Origin: Prevotella sp.
GTDB lineage: Bacteria; Bacteroidota; Bacteroidia; Bacteroidales; Bacteroidaceae
Direction of reading: 5' to 3'
NCBI GenBank assembly: GCA_018385335.1
Contig: JAHAZN010000035.1
Coordinates: 1 to 64,000 of the forward strand
Length of the DNA stretch: 64,000 nucleotides
Shown here: piece after piece, positions 38,803-46,863 of the stretch
Numbering within the stretch: the first letter of the stretch is position 1
Layout of the letters: each line of letters opens with the position of its first letter
Translations under genes and position numbers: made by a program
The notes under the pieces: generated by a model
What the model saw: only the letters and a program-made list of their open reading frames with translations
Told to the model about the DNA's origin: nothing
The model's database searches: none

Positions 38803-41331
38803 TTATTTTGCCTTTTGTCTTGCCTGTTTCGTTATTCTCAAGGCTGCTACCGACCAGGCAGGCAGTGTGAGTGTCACTTCCTCTCCCACTTCTATCTCTC
38901 GCTCCGTCATTTCTTTCCAGGCTTTGTTGCGATCCGGTTGCTGTGGTCCGGTGAGCAGGGTCAAGACTGCTTGGGGCTTGCCTTCACCGATGATGGTTGC
39001 CAGGTCGGCGACTTTCAATGTCACCTCGGCATCGTGTGGCAACAGGCTCACCATCTTCACATCCATCTCGCCGGTCTTCTTCACTCTTGTCACCGAGCAA
39101 TCTATTCTCTTCTCTATCTCTGCCTTGAGCGGTTGATGTCCGTTGTCGCTGAGGTAGGCGGCCTCCACCTGCGATGCGATATACTCGTCACCGGCATGCT
39201 GGCCGAAGAGTTTCTGAATCTCATAGTTGGCGGTGGGTTTCACCTCAGTGTTGTTGAAATAGATAAGGTCGGGATTCCATTTCGTATAACCCTCTTTGGC
39301 CAACAGCGGCGCATAGGAAGCCATGACCACCACATCGGCGTTCTTCTCCACATGGGTGAGATAGGCAGCCTCGGCGAGCGCATTGCTCACATGATTGCCC
39401 TTCGATGCCCATTCGCCGAGATAGACCTTTGTTCCCTGACGGTCATAGTTGTCGTAGAAGTTGCGATGGTTGAAATACCAGCCGGGCGAGTTATAGTAGT
39501 GTTCGTCAACGATGGCGATATGATGTTCCTTGGCTGCCTGCCATCCATATTCGTAGTCGGAACCTTCCCAAAATGGTCCCACGGTGCCCACGAGGGTGAT
39601 CTCGGGATGAGCTTTCTTGATGCCTTCCATGAGGAACAGGTAGCGTTTCATGAAGACGTCGCTGATCAGGTCCTCGTTACCTATGCCGAGATATTTCAGT
39701 CCGAAGGGTTTGGGGTGGCCTGCCTTGGCTCTCAGTGCAGCCAAGGGTGAGGTCTTGGCATCGCCGTTGGCCCACTCTATCAGGTCGAGCAACTCCTGGA
39801 GATAGCTCTCCATGGTGAGGGGCTTGCCGTTATACTGGTAGGGCGATGGCTGTCCGTTGAGTTCTTCCTCAAAGGGGATGCCTCCCTGCTGTCCGTTGCC
39901 TCCCTTCCATGAGTTCTGACAGGGCACACCGGCTGCCAGCACGGGCAACGGTTCGGCACCGAGGTCTTCGCAGAAGGTGAAATACTCATAGAAGCCGAGA
40001 CCTCTCGTCTGGTGGTAGCTCCAGATGTTCATGTCTCCCTGGCGTTCCCACAGGTCGCCGATGGTGGCTTGCCAGTGGTAGATGTTGTCGATGCCCTGAC
40101 CATGAGAGGCGCAACCGCCGGGGAATCTGACGAAACGTGGCTTGAGGTCGGCGATCACCTGTGCCAGGTCATTTCGCAGTCCGTTCTCCCTTCCCTTAAA
40201 GGTGTTCTTTGGGAAGAGCGAGACGAAATCGATGTCGAGGGTTCCCTCCTGCAAGGGGCTGATGACAAGGCGTGCCTTGTCGGCGCTCTTCTTCGGTGTG
40301 AGCACGGCTTTCTGCTGTTTCCATCCCGTCGTGGCCTTGATGTTGCATGAGGCCAGGGTCTCGGTGTCGGCCATGAGGCTCACCTTCACGCTCCCCTTCC
40401 CTTTCACGAAGAGCGAGAGCAGATATTTCTCCTTAGCCTTGAGTGGGATGCCGTCCCATCCGTTATTGACGAGGGCTCCGCCCACCTTGGTCGTGGTAAG
40501 TTGGAGATAGTGACAGTTGTTCTCATGCAACGGCTGTTGGGTGGCCACCTGCCATGAGATATGCTCGCCTTCGAGGTTCCATGCGGTGGTGGCTGTCCAT
40601 CCCCTTCGGTCCTTCTCCGAATACTCGAAGTCGCGGTTTTCGATAAGTTCGGCATAGAGTCCGCCATCGGCGGCATAGCTGATATCCTCGAAGAAGATGC
40701 CCATGAGATTGGGCGAGATGTCCTTCACGTCCTTCGCATCGATGGTCACCGTGGCCTTGATGCCTTTGGCCTCCTTGGCGAGACGGGCGGCAGAGGCTAC
40801 GAAGTTCTCGCTCTCCTTGGCCCAGTTCTGTTCTCTGAGAATCTTCTTGTCGAGCAGGTTCTGCAGTGCCTTGTAGGGGATGCGTATCACGTTGTCCTCC
40901 GATGCTTTCTTCTGCTTTTCGAGCAAGGTTTCAAATGCTTTTTGGTCAAGATATGGATAGTCCTGCGGTTTCCACAGCGTAAAGTTGTCCGACTGTGTCT
41001 TGGCTATCTGTGGCTGTTTGGGGTTGGGGATGAAGGTGGCATAGAAGGTCTTGCCGTCGTAGCTCATCACGGGATAATAGAGTTTCTTCTCGCTTCCCCA
41101 AGGTCCGTAATCGCTCTCGAAGAGGTTGCAGTCCACATGTGTCCAATGCTTCCTGTCCTGCGAATAGGCTATCTGGAAGTTGCGTGTGCCGTTCTTCACA
41201 TCCGGCTTCACATAGATGGAGTCGGGATGGTTGGCCATCACTGTTGTCGCTACCATGGGGGTGGCAGCCACTGCGAATAAAAAAACCCGCCTCAGGAGGT
41301 GAAGCGGGAGTTTGACGTTATATCTTCTCAT
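38803..41331 (-). CDS. GH51 alpha-L-arabinofuranosidase with N-terminal extension
   Basis: GIFFEDISYAADGGLYAELIENRDFE; RFPGGCASHG; GIGNED acid/base; GTKVYLGEWAS nucleophile region. Confidence 0.93.
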   Translation of the reverse strand: MRRYNVKLPLHLLRRVFLFAVAATPMVATTVMANHPDSIYVKPDVKNGTRNFQIAYSQDRKHWTHVDCNLFESDYGPWGSEKKLYYPVMSYDGKTFYATFIPNPKQPQIAKTQSDNFTLWKPQDYPYLDQKAFETLLEKQKKASEDNVIRIPYKALQNLLDKKILREQNWAKESENFVASAARLAKEAKGIKATVTIDAKDVKDISPNLMGIFFEDISYAADGGLYAELIENRDFEYSEKDRRGWTATTAWNLEGEHISWQVATQQPLHENNCHYLQLTTTKVGGALVNNGWDGIPLKAKEKYLLSLFVKGKGSVKVSLMADTETLASCNIKATTGWKQQKAVLTPKKSADKARLVISPLQEGTLDIDFVSLFPKNTFKGRENGLRNDLAQVIADLKPRFVRFPGGCASHGQGIDNIYHWQATIGDLWERQGDMNIWSYHQTRGLGFYEYFTFCEDLGAEPLPVLAAGVPCQNSWKGGNGQQGGIPFEEELNGQPSPYQYNGKPLTMESYLQELLDLIEWANGDAKTSPLAALRAKAGHPKPFGLKYLGIGNEDLISDVFMKRYLFLMEGIKKAHPEITLVGTVGPFWEGSDYEYGWQAAKEHHIAIVDEHYYNSPGWYFNHRNFYDNYDRQGTKVYLGEWASKGNHVSNALAEAAYLTHVEKNADVVVMASYAPLLAKEGYTKWNPDLIYFNNTEVKPTANYEIQKLFGQHAGDEYIASQVEAAYLSDNGHQPLKAEIEKRIDCSVTRVKKTGEMDVKMVSLLPHDAEVTLKVADLATIIGEGKPQAVLTLLTGPQQPDRNKAWKEMTEREIEVGEEVTLTLPAWSVAALRITKQARQKAK
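41279..41308 (-). terminator. Terminator-like hairpin inside the 5' end of the GH51 coding sequence (candidate attenuator)
   Basis: Minus-strand CCCGCTTC-ACCTCCT-GAGGCGGG-TTTTTTT: 8-bp stem with one G-U pair, 7-nt loop, seven Ts. Confidence 0.75.
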
Positions 41332-41384
41332 GTTCTAATGTTTTCTTTTCATAAGTTGAAATCACACGCAACTTCCCGCTCCAC
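41299..41384 (-). promoter_or_regulatory. Candidate antiterminator pairing upstream of and overlapping the GH51 start
   Basis: Leader GTGGAGCGGGAAGTT (41384-41370) can pair with AACTCCCGCTTCAC (41312-41299), which contains the left arm of the 41279-41308 terminator. Confidence 0.55.
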
Positions 41385-41543
41385 AGTAGCCTGCAAAGTA
41401 ATAATAAAAGCTAAAGAAATAGGTGTCAATTCCACTCATATTGTTTCTTTTTTCTTGTTTTCAGTTGCAAAAGTATAATTTTTCTTTGAATGAGCAAAGA
41501 AATCGGAAGTTTTTTTCCGTCTTTTCATGGGTAATTCGTTTAA

Positions 41544-43754: not shown

Positions 43755-46688
43755 TTATTCTATCACCATAACAAACCCACCCCTCGGCTTACATTTCATG
43801 GCCTTGGGTGCTTTTCCTTTCATTCTTCTCACGTTCCATTTCTGAGCGTCTTTCTTTCCATCTTCCAAAATAAGGATATTCTTTCCTCTCTTTACTATTG
43901 GTGTCAGATCGATGTTGAGTGTGATGGGGTGATCGGTGCCGTTGATACCAGCCACGTACCATGTTGTTCCCTTTCTTCTTGCCATCACCACCTGTTCTCC
44001 TGGGTAGCCTTCAATGAGCATCGTCTCCTCCCATGCTGTAGGCAGTGAACCGATAATCTTTTTCACCTCCTCGGGTTGTACGAGATAGCTCTCTGGTCTG
44101 TCAGCCCAGTGTAGTAATCCCGACTCATAGAGCACCGCTAATGCCAGTTCGTGGGCATTGGTGGTGATGTGTGGATGTTGTGAGTCGGAGAAGGTGCATG
44201 GGGTATAGTCCATCGAACCTATCACGTTTCGTGTGAATGGCAGTGTGGCATTGTGTGCGGCAGCCCTGTTGGTGAGCACGGGCAGGTTGTTATACCATTC
44301 AGCGCCGTACACACCCTCCACCGACATGAGGTTGGGATAGGTGCGTTGCCATCCTCTTGGCACTGTAGCTCCGTGGAAGTTGACAAGCAGATGATGTTTT
44401 GCGGCACACTCAAGCAGGTCGATGCAATATTGCATGGTCTCCTGTTTGTCTCCCGCAAAGAAGTCAATTTTCACACCAACCACTCCCTTCTCTTCGAGCC
44501 ATGCAAACTCTCTCTCTCTATTTTCCGGTGCGTTAAGTCTATCATGCGGTCCGGGTGCTCCTCCGTTTTTTGTCCATGCTGTCGAAGAGTTATACCACAG
44601 TATGGTCTTCACACCTTTTTCTTTGGCATAGTTGAGTGCCTTTTCTATGTCTCCGCCATTGCCCATCTCGTCCCATTCGGCATCTATCAGCACATAGGGT
44701 AGCGCCAATTTTGCCGCCATATCTATATATTGTTTCACTATCTGATAGTCCTTTGAGCCATGATTGTGTGCCCAATAAATCCACGACACTCCTCCTGGCA
44801 TTATCCAAGAAGTATCTTCCAGTCGGCATGGTTCACTGACATCGCTGACGAGTGTCGATTCCACGAGGTCTTTTCTCTTTCCAACTATCACCACCCTCCA
44901 TGGCGAGTTCCATTCGCCGCTCATCTGCAGTGTATTGATGTCGGGCACCACTCTGTAGTCCTCTTGATTACCGTCGTTGTAAAGACACGATGCACTATGC
45001 TGTCGCTCTATTCCTGCCTCGGTGATGAGCGCCCACACATCGTTCTCCACCTCTATGAGTGCGGGATATCCCCATCTTCTGTTGTTACTCTTTCCCGTTG
45101 TTGTCAATGGGAAAAACTCTTCATAGGATTCCGTCCATTTCTGCATCCATCTCTTTGTTCCTTCCTTTATGTTATAGGTAGTCTTTTCCTCTGCCAATGC
45201 GACATGCTGCAGTGCTGTGAGCTCATATCTGAAGGCCATTCCATCGTTGTAGAGTCTCACCCTCATGCGTTGCACTCTTCCCATGTTGTCTTCAAAGGAA
45301 TAAACTGTTTCAGTGGCTTCATTTGTGCAGGTCAGTCGTTTACCGCTCTTCATTTCATAATGTTCCTTTATCATTGTCGGCTTGCTCACGCTGCTTATCT
45401 TCAGTCCCCGTCCGCCTCCGTCTCTTGTATTCTGTCCGAACTGTGTGATTGTCAATACCTTTTGTTCCTCACCCTGCTGTCTATAACTAAGGTTGAATGC
45501 CACGATGTTTCCGTCTTTCACCACGGGTTGCAGCCTCACCTTTCCGTTGGGTGCCGTTATCGTGGTAGCCACGTCGGCGGTATTTTTCTGTTTGAAGAAT
45601 TGTTGCATAGTGGTGGCGAGATAGGTGCGTGCATTCATCCATGTATGTCCTCCTCCAGTGAGCATCTTCTCATAGTTCACCTTTTTGTCATTGAGATAGT
45701 CCCAGTTTCTCAGCACATCCTGATAGAGTAAGTCGTCGCTGCCCACACCATACCAGAGCATGGTGAAGGGTGGCTCTCCATCGAAGAGGTGAGGGAAATA
45801 CCTATCCATCACCGCTGGTGTGAGGAAGGCGCTGTAGGATGCCAGATAGGCAAACATCTCTGGATATTTCATAGCAGTGAAGAGCGCCTGCCCTCCTCCT
45901 CTCGAGAATCCTGCTATGGCTCGGTTCTCTCTCCCCGTCTTCACGCGGAAGTGCTGTGCCACATAGGGCATGACACACTCTGTGAGCTCATTGCTGAAGG
46001 TGGTGTACATCTCTGCCGCCTCCATCGATGTCGGTCTGGGAGTGCCATTCATCATATTTCCATAGGGCATCACCACTATCATCTCTTCTGCCTTTCCCTC
46101 CGCGATGAGGTTGTCGAGGATGATATTTGCTCTTCCCACCTTTGTCCATGTCTCCTCGGTGTCTGTAGTGCCACTGATGAGATAAAATGTGGGATAGGTT
46201 CTGTTGCTTGTCTCATAGCCGTGTGGGGTATAAACAAGTAGGGGACGGTTGATGCCGAGCACTTTGGAGTGATAGGTACAATAGCTCACCTTACCATGGG
46301 GCACATCCTTCACGGTGTAGAGAGCGGCATCGCTGGGCATCTCAAGCAAACTGGCCTTAAAGCGCTCGTTGGGGAAGATGTTGGTATTGCTGGGGTCTGC
46401 TATCCTCGTTCCGTCAACGATGAAGGCATAGGGATAGATGTCGGGGGTACTGATGTTTACCTCTCCTCTCCACACTCCATTCTTATCTTTGGTCATTGAC
46501 TTTGTGTCCTTCATAAACTGACCTTCTATGCTCACATCCTTGGCATGAGGGGCATCTAAGGCAAACTTCACTGTGTGGCCGTCATGCTGTATATCGGGCG
46601 ACTTAATAGGGTTATCCCAGTGATTCTGTGCCCAACCTGTGGTGAGGGAGAGCGCGAGTAATAACAGAGTAAGATTGTTTTTTGTCAT
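43755..46688 (-). CDS. CE1-type esterase fused to GH97 glycoside hydrolase
   Basis: Signal peptide; N-terminal E-set/CBM48-like domain; GFSRGGGQALFTA esterase nucleophile elbow; C-terminal GH97 (YVLIDAEWDEMGNGGDIEKALNYAKEKGVKTILWYNSS...GVKIDFFAGDKQ). Confidence 0.88.
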   Translation of the reverse strand: MTKNNLTLLLLALSLTTGWAQNHWDNPIKSPDIQHDGHTVKFALDAPHAKDVSIEGQFMKDTKSMTKDKNGVWRGEVNISTPDIYPYAFIVDGTRIADPSNTNIFPNERFKASLLEMPSDAALYTVKDVPHGKVSYCTYHSKVLGINRPLLVYTPHGYETSNRTYPTFYLISGTTDTEETWTKVGRANIILDNLIAEGKAEEMIVVMPYGNMMNGTPRPTSMEAAEMYTTFSNELTECVMPYVAQHFRVKTGRENRAIAGFSRGGGQALFTAMKYPEMFAYLASYSAFLTPAVMDRYFPHLFDGEPPFTMLWYGVGSDDLLYQDVLRNWDYLNDKKVNYEKMLTGGGHTWMNARTYLATTMQQFFKQKNTADVATTITAPNGKVRLQPVVKDGNIVAFNLSYRQQGEEQKVLTITQFGQNTRDGGGRGLKISSVSKPTMIKEHYEMKSGKRLTCTNEATETVYSFEDNMGRVQRMRVRLYNDGMAFRYELTALQHVALAEEKTTYNIKEGTKRWMQKWTESYEEFFPLTTTGKSNNRRWGYPALIEVENDVWALITEAGIERQHSASCLYNDGNQEDYRVVPDINTLQMSGEWNSPWRVVIVGKRKDLVESTLVSDVSEPCRLEDTSWIMPGGVSWIYWAHNHGSKDYQIVKQYIDMAAKLALPYVLIDAEWDEMGNGGDIEKALNYAKEKGVKTILWYNSSTAWTKNGGAPGPHDRLNAPENREREFAWLEEKGVVGVKIDFFAGDKQETMQYCIDLLECAAKHHLLVNFHGATVPRGWQRTYPNLMSVEGVYGAEWYNNLPVLTNRAAAHNATLPFTRNVIGSMDYTPCTFSDSQHPHITTNAHELALAVLYESGLLHWADRPESYLVQPEEVKKIIGSLPTAWEETMLIEGYPGEQVVMARRKGTTWYVAGINGTDHPITLNIDLTPIVKRGKNILILEDGKKDAQKWNVRRMKGKAPKAMKCKPRGGFVMVIE

Positions 46689-46729
46689 CGATCTTAGTTT
46701 ACTATTTATAATTCTTAGGTATAACTCTG

Positions 46730-46737
46730 CAAATTTA
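46730..46737 (-). promoter_or_regulatory. Candidate -7 box (TAAATTTG) for CE1-GH97
   Basis: TAnnTTTG on the minus strand upstream of 46688. Confidence 0.5.
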
Positions 46738-46863
46738 GTCATTTTTTCTCAGTTGCGTAACAGGGCATTGTTCATTATATCTCATTTGCTCTTCTTTTTT
46801 CACTATTTTTACGTTTACCCTCTGTTTTTCTGTAAAACCCTTTCGTATTTCTTAGAAAACTAT

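Follow-up and report, generated by a model that had tools for sequence, protein, structure and literature searches.

A probable ribosome-mediated Phe/Tyr attenuator of the pheA operon in a Prevotella sp., with a GH51 arabinofuranosidase gene inserted behind its terminator

Taken as a whole, the element analyzed here is very probably a ribosome-mediated Phe/Tyr attenuator of the pheA operon, behind which a GH51 alpha-L-arabinofuranosidase gene has been inserted. The window, a stretch of 64,000 nucleotides from a Prevotella sp. contig (JAHAZN010000035.1), carries this element on its minus strand, and the arrangement seen in ribosome-mediated attenuators was found in it: a leader ORF rich in Phe and Tyr (F/Y) codons, two mutually exclusive helices, genes for the same amino acids downstream, though GH51 intervenes in this genome, and a suitable spacing. 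We also lean slightly towards the view that the GH51 gene has been captured by the attenuator. In that case it would be transcribed mainly at Phe/Tyr shortage, and the n-region and the beginning of the hydrophobic core of a hybrid signal peptide would be translated from the antiterminator/terminator, the same bases being RNA switch and secretion signal.

Results

Leader ORF, promoter, and aromatic operon

As shown in Table 1, a leader ORF with F or Y at eight of nine consecutive codons starts 28 nt downstream of a Bacteroidetes-type promoter, and transcription would begin near 41462. This was the sole ORF in the window to reach at least 8 F/Y per 12 residues, and about 0 such ORFs per window were expected from a first-order Markov control. 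The promoter was likewise the only strict Bacteroidetes match on the minus strand between 33 and 44.5 kb, and no second strict match was found there before GH51 or pheA. The initial annotation had missed the 25-codon leader ORF and its promoter, and also the downstream aromatic operon. A second copy of the attenuator was looked for in the genome, and none was found. Elsewhere in the window, at 43755-46742 on the minus strand, a 995-aa protein fuses a putative esterase domain to a complete GH97 glycosidase.

Table 1 Features of the attenuator and of the genes behind it in the window
Feature	Position	Strand	Remarks
Bacteroidetes-type promoter, TTTG-N19-TACTTTTG	41498-41468	minus	strict motif match
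Leader ORF, MSGIDTYFFSFYYYFAGYCGAGSCV plus stop, 25 codons	41439-41362	minus	directly upstream of the interval first annotated; stop codon 41364-41362
Control codons, Tyr-Phe-Phe-Ser-Phe-Tyr-Tyr-Tyr-Phe	41421-41395	minus	extra Tyr at 41388-41386
Antiterminator 5' strand, GTGGAGCGGGA	41384-41374	minus	within last codons of leader ORF
Inner hairpin, AAGTTG...CAACTT	41374-41353	minus	spans leader stop codon
MKRKH ORF of the initial annotation	41352-41335	minus	without conservation, probably incidental
Antiterminator 3' strand, TCCCGCTTCAC	41309-41299	minus	overlaps terminator 5' arm
Intrinsic terminator, CCCGCTTCA-CCTCC-TGAGGCGGG	41308-41286, U-tract 41285-41279	minus	hairpin plus 7 T
GH51 alpha-L-arabinofuranosidase, 842 aa	41331-38803	minus	between attenuator and pheA; attenuator DNA supplies the codons up to about 18
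pheA, prephenate dehydratase	38778-37948	minus	single copy found in genome
Class I/II aminotransferase	37944-36781	minus	aromatic operon
DAHP synthase-chorismate mutase	36702-35638	minus	aromatic operon
tyrA, prephenate dehydrogenase	35603-34806	minus	aromatic operon
EamA-family transporter	34809-33889	minus	end of operon; after tyrA in L263 too

Terminator and competing antiterminator

In a consensus scan for terminator-like sites between 38 and 44 kb, the terminator with its U-tract was at the top of the list. The competing antiterminator helix, GTGGAGCGGGA x TCCCGCTTCAC, consists of 11 contiguous pairs including one G-U, followed by a bulged A and then GTT x AAC, and its 5' strand sits in the leader codons TGT GGA GCG GGA. 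This helix was the dominant feature of a local RNA fold (MFE -40.1 kcal/mol, z = -3.4), and 0 of 200 shuffles were as stable. The initial annotation had located the terminator within the opening codons of GH51, had described the antiterminator pairing and called the two structures mutually exclusive, and had suggested an RNA fold and a covariation check on both stems. Its sequence, coordinates, and pairing proved correct, as did the mutual exclusivity. The terminator/antiterminator pair is real: compensatory changes maintain each helix in the relatives described below.

Helix conservation was examined in 98 aligned leaders, with slid helices and 300 column shuffles as controls, which correct only partly for relatedness. 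With relatedness only partly controlled in these 98 leaders, 88% of cells were paired in the antiterminator (slid helices, 40-48%), 81% in the terminator (37-57%), and 70% in the inner hairpin AAGTTG/CAACTT (21-41%). Each of the three was above all 300 column shuffles, and in each, five pairs had changed at both positions. Compensated helices included GTGAAGCAGG x CCTGCTTCAC in one relative (L074), and GCGGA x TCCGC in one group of leaders versus GCGGGA x TCCCGC in another. Since both helices are conserved in the 98 aligned relatives, the terminator and antiterminator stand well above chance. The inner hairpin, present in the window and in relatives, is a possible RNA polymerase pause hairpin.

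The same leader directly before pheA in relatives

About 107 genomes contributed the 119 pheA loci of the same-genus comparison set. The results showed an F/Y-rich leader directly before pheA, with GH51 absent, at 116 of the 119 loci, and the leader typically read ..NAYFYGYYFYFA.NCEAGSCV. The distance from leader to pheA was 150-375 nt, which leaves no space for an intervening gene, and in 97 of the 116 loci the leader was preceded by a promoter motif of the TTTG-N19-TACTTTTG type. Core columns near the end of the aligned leader block were occupied almost solely by F or Y, interchanging with each other (117 loci), as expected if Phe/Tyr codons are under selection. In 103 of 117 sequences the start of the helix core was 17 nt downstream of the first base of the last F codon, and the stop codon lay 16 nt after the helix core start in 101 of 117. 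At the three loci without the leader, pheA was found behind a bare promoter (L099) or close behind another gene (L009 and L112). The leader in the window departs somewhat from the consensus: its helix contains one G-U pair, Gly replaces Glu, and an additional Tyr follows downstream.

F/Y-rich leader ORFs before pheA were also found in other Bacteroidales families (L232-L260), for example MNHFSFTYFYFYFYFSNKVKRDFNV in L240. Across many families of the order, such leaders before pheA are a candidate new RNA family.

Masking simulation and proposed mechanism

In the masking simulation, an equilibrium and non-kinetic calculation, the RNA was masked by a ribosome of assumed footprint. With this assumed footprint at the stop codon, P(terminator) was 0.94 and P(antiterminator) was 0.00. 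With the same assumed footprint stalled at codons 9, 12, and 15, P(antiterminator) was 0.82, 0.95, and 0.65, respectively, and P(terminator) was at most 0.024. The antiterminator was favored in the ribosome-free fold (P 0.81), so basal termination would need translation of the leader. Together with the conserved geometry, the simulation with its assumed footprint showed that the spacing suits a choice of structure by a stalled versus a terminating ribosome.

In the mechanism we propose, charged tRNA-Phe/tRNA-Tyr would be the sensed signal, and the pheA-aminotransferase-DAHPS/CM-tyrA operon the target. The ribosome would translate the leader with RNA polymerase close ahead. When Phe and Tyr are ample, it would reach the stop codon and cover the antiterminator 5' strand, so that the terminator would fold and transcription would end in the U-tract. 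When Phe or Tyr is scarce, the ribosome would stall on the control codons, and the free 5' strand would pair with its 3' partner, letting transcription go on. Lying between terminator and pheA, GH51 would be part of the same attenuated transcript in this genome.

Insertion of GH51 and its hybrid signal peptide

The gene order PepC-TPR-leader-pheA in three relatives (L075, L093, and L106) is that of the window minus GH51. Because both flanks are syntenic with relatives lacking GH51 at this place, the gene was inserted between the terminator and pheA. The best of 80 GH51 relatives from the genome collection was 73% identical; none of the 80 had a comparable leader before GH51, and pheA was absent from the compared stretches around them. 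As no other strict promoter was found, GH51 is expected to be transcribed solely via attenuator read-through, and it is probably, perhaps fortuitously, under the control of aromatic amino-acid supply.

A local origin from the GH51 genes found downstream of pheA in L262 and L263 was considered and rejected as unlikely, because their identity is 41-43%, versus 73% for a GH51 found elsewhere. As for their location, these related genes lie about 7-10 kb downstream of pheA (L262:8044-10617 and L263:10577-13120), and match positions in several other members of the genus suggest a GH51-pheA distance of about 8-14 kb.

Signal peptides of the orthologues were mostly short and ordinary, for example MKRLSSILFVAFMACTTAMA-NHPDS in L122. 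In the window, NHPDS is preceded by MRRYNVKLPLHLLRRVFLFAVAATPMVATTVMA; attenuator DNA encodes this stretch as far as the U-tract (about VFL), and the remainder resembles an orthologous signal peptide. In a relative, L204, the same reading frame hits TGA right after the terminator. The ATG at 41331, the only one in frame that supplies a signal peptide, sits in the loop of the antiterminator, and the start of the signal peptide would therefore be encoded by the terminator and U-tract. Judged from the reading frame, the n-region of GH51 appears to be encoded by the attenuator, with the U-tract coding part of the hydrophobic core. It is unlikely, at something like one chance in a handful, that the attenuator is real but translation of GH51 begins at a GTG/ATG farther downstream, leaving the protein without a full signal peptide, or that GH51 is a silent passenger. 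Such a reading would fit the long n-region, which is unlike that of the orthologues, but nearly all inspected orthologues have a short signal peptide abutting an NHPDS-like mature start, which in this gene only the ATG at 41331 would provide, and the 842 codons are open and contain GH51 domains.

We consider it improbable that the attenuator is real and its adjacency to GH51 is an artefact of assembly. The draft genome comprises 84 contigs, and no second genome with this arrangement was found, in a scan possibly lacking very near records. However, the genes on either side, PepC and TPR before GH51 and pheA after it, keep the order seen in relatives, so a chimeric assembly would need two false joins. 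One of them would be in frame with the ATG, the other, just before pheA, would keep the GACAACATGAA stretch seen in L204, and the GH51 ORF between them is intact.

The initial annotation had read the element as an attenuator of GH51 itself, answering arabinan/arabinoxylan, with MKRKH as its leader ORF. Although the terminator does fall inside the GH51 ORF, the same element stands before pheA without GH51 in more than 100 relatives, 0 of 80 GH51 relatives have a comparable leader or, in the compared stretches, a nearby pheA, and MKRKH is not conserved: the triplet after CAACTT was ATG in 31 sequences and AAG, AGG, AAA, or ATA in 24, and CAACTT was missing in 62. The same leader before pheA without GH51, together with the Phe/Tyr genes downstream, points to a Phe/Tyr attenuator and not an arabinan switch, and GH51-specific regulation is very hard to sustain. 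For this Phe/Tyr attenuator, the relevant condition is probably Phe/Tyr limitation, and a comparison with and without arabinan/arabinoxylan would probably be uninformative.

Direct sensing of a metabolite or tRNA by a riboswitch or T-box-type element has next to no likelihood: alternative structures exist, but the window gave no Rfam family match (including RF01859 Phe_leader at E up to 10), the T-box model was not among the matches in the window or relatives, the relatives gave only a sub-threshold Phe_leader match (full-length in L240, from another part of the order, scoring 30 bits where the cut-off is 55), and what is conserved is an F/Y ORF that is translated and lies at constant distances from the helix and the stop codon.

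Discussion

A conserved attenuator without an Rfam family has now been given a sensor, a signal, and a target. The attenuator appears to be widespread upstream of pheA in Bacteroidales, an order for which the searched literature documents little leader-peptide attenuation, and our literature search found no paper on attenuation of pheA in Prevotella. The GH51 locus would also offer an example from nature in which a gene has entered behind a terminator and recruited the regulatory RNA as the beginning of its own reading frame, tying a CAZyme to the supply of amino acids.

That phe operons can be attenuated through leader peptides is textbook knowledge. In the proteobacterial trp, his, and leu attenuators, translation of the leader is coupled to the choice of terminator, as proposed here, usually with a 1:2 protector hairpin, whereas no separate protector helix of this type is evident in the present element. 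The survey of Vitreschak et al. in 2004 reportedly mentions attenuators in Bacteroidetes/Chlorobi. Bacteroid-trp is a trp-operon attenuator candidate, but its model, RF01692, was not among the Rfam matches in the window or relatives. That motif was listed as a Bacteroidetes cis-regulatory motif by Weinberg et al. in 2010 (PMC2864571). The map of B. thetaiotaomicron contains sORFs reminiscent of attenuation leaders (PMC7366714), and the transcriptome of Flavobacterium psychrophilum gave strong clues that leader peptides attenuate amino-acid operons, and revealed, in front of pheA, a conserved structured 5' element with no Rfam match (PMC9723704). The F. psychrophilum element is from the same phylum and precedes the same gene, but belongs to another family with no GH51 reported, and is likened here by description, not by sequence.

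The enterobacterial Phe_leader of pheL-pheA (RF01859) resembles the present element in its short leader peptide, rich in the amino acid that the operon produces, and in its mutually exclusive antiterminator and terminator before prephenate dehydratase. It differs in that the element here has Tyr codons besides Phe, an antiterminator strand in the last codons of the leader ORF, an operon that includes tyrA, and a promoter of Bacteroidetes type. The switching logic suggested by the masking simulation would be that of the pheL attenuator. The attenuator belongs to a known kind, and the odd part is the capture of GH51.
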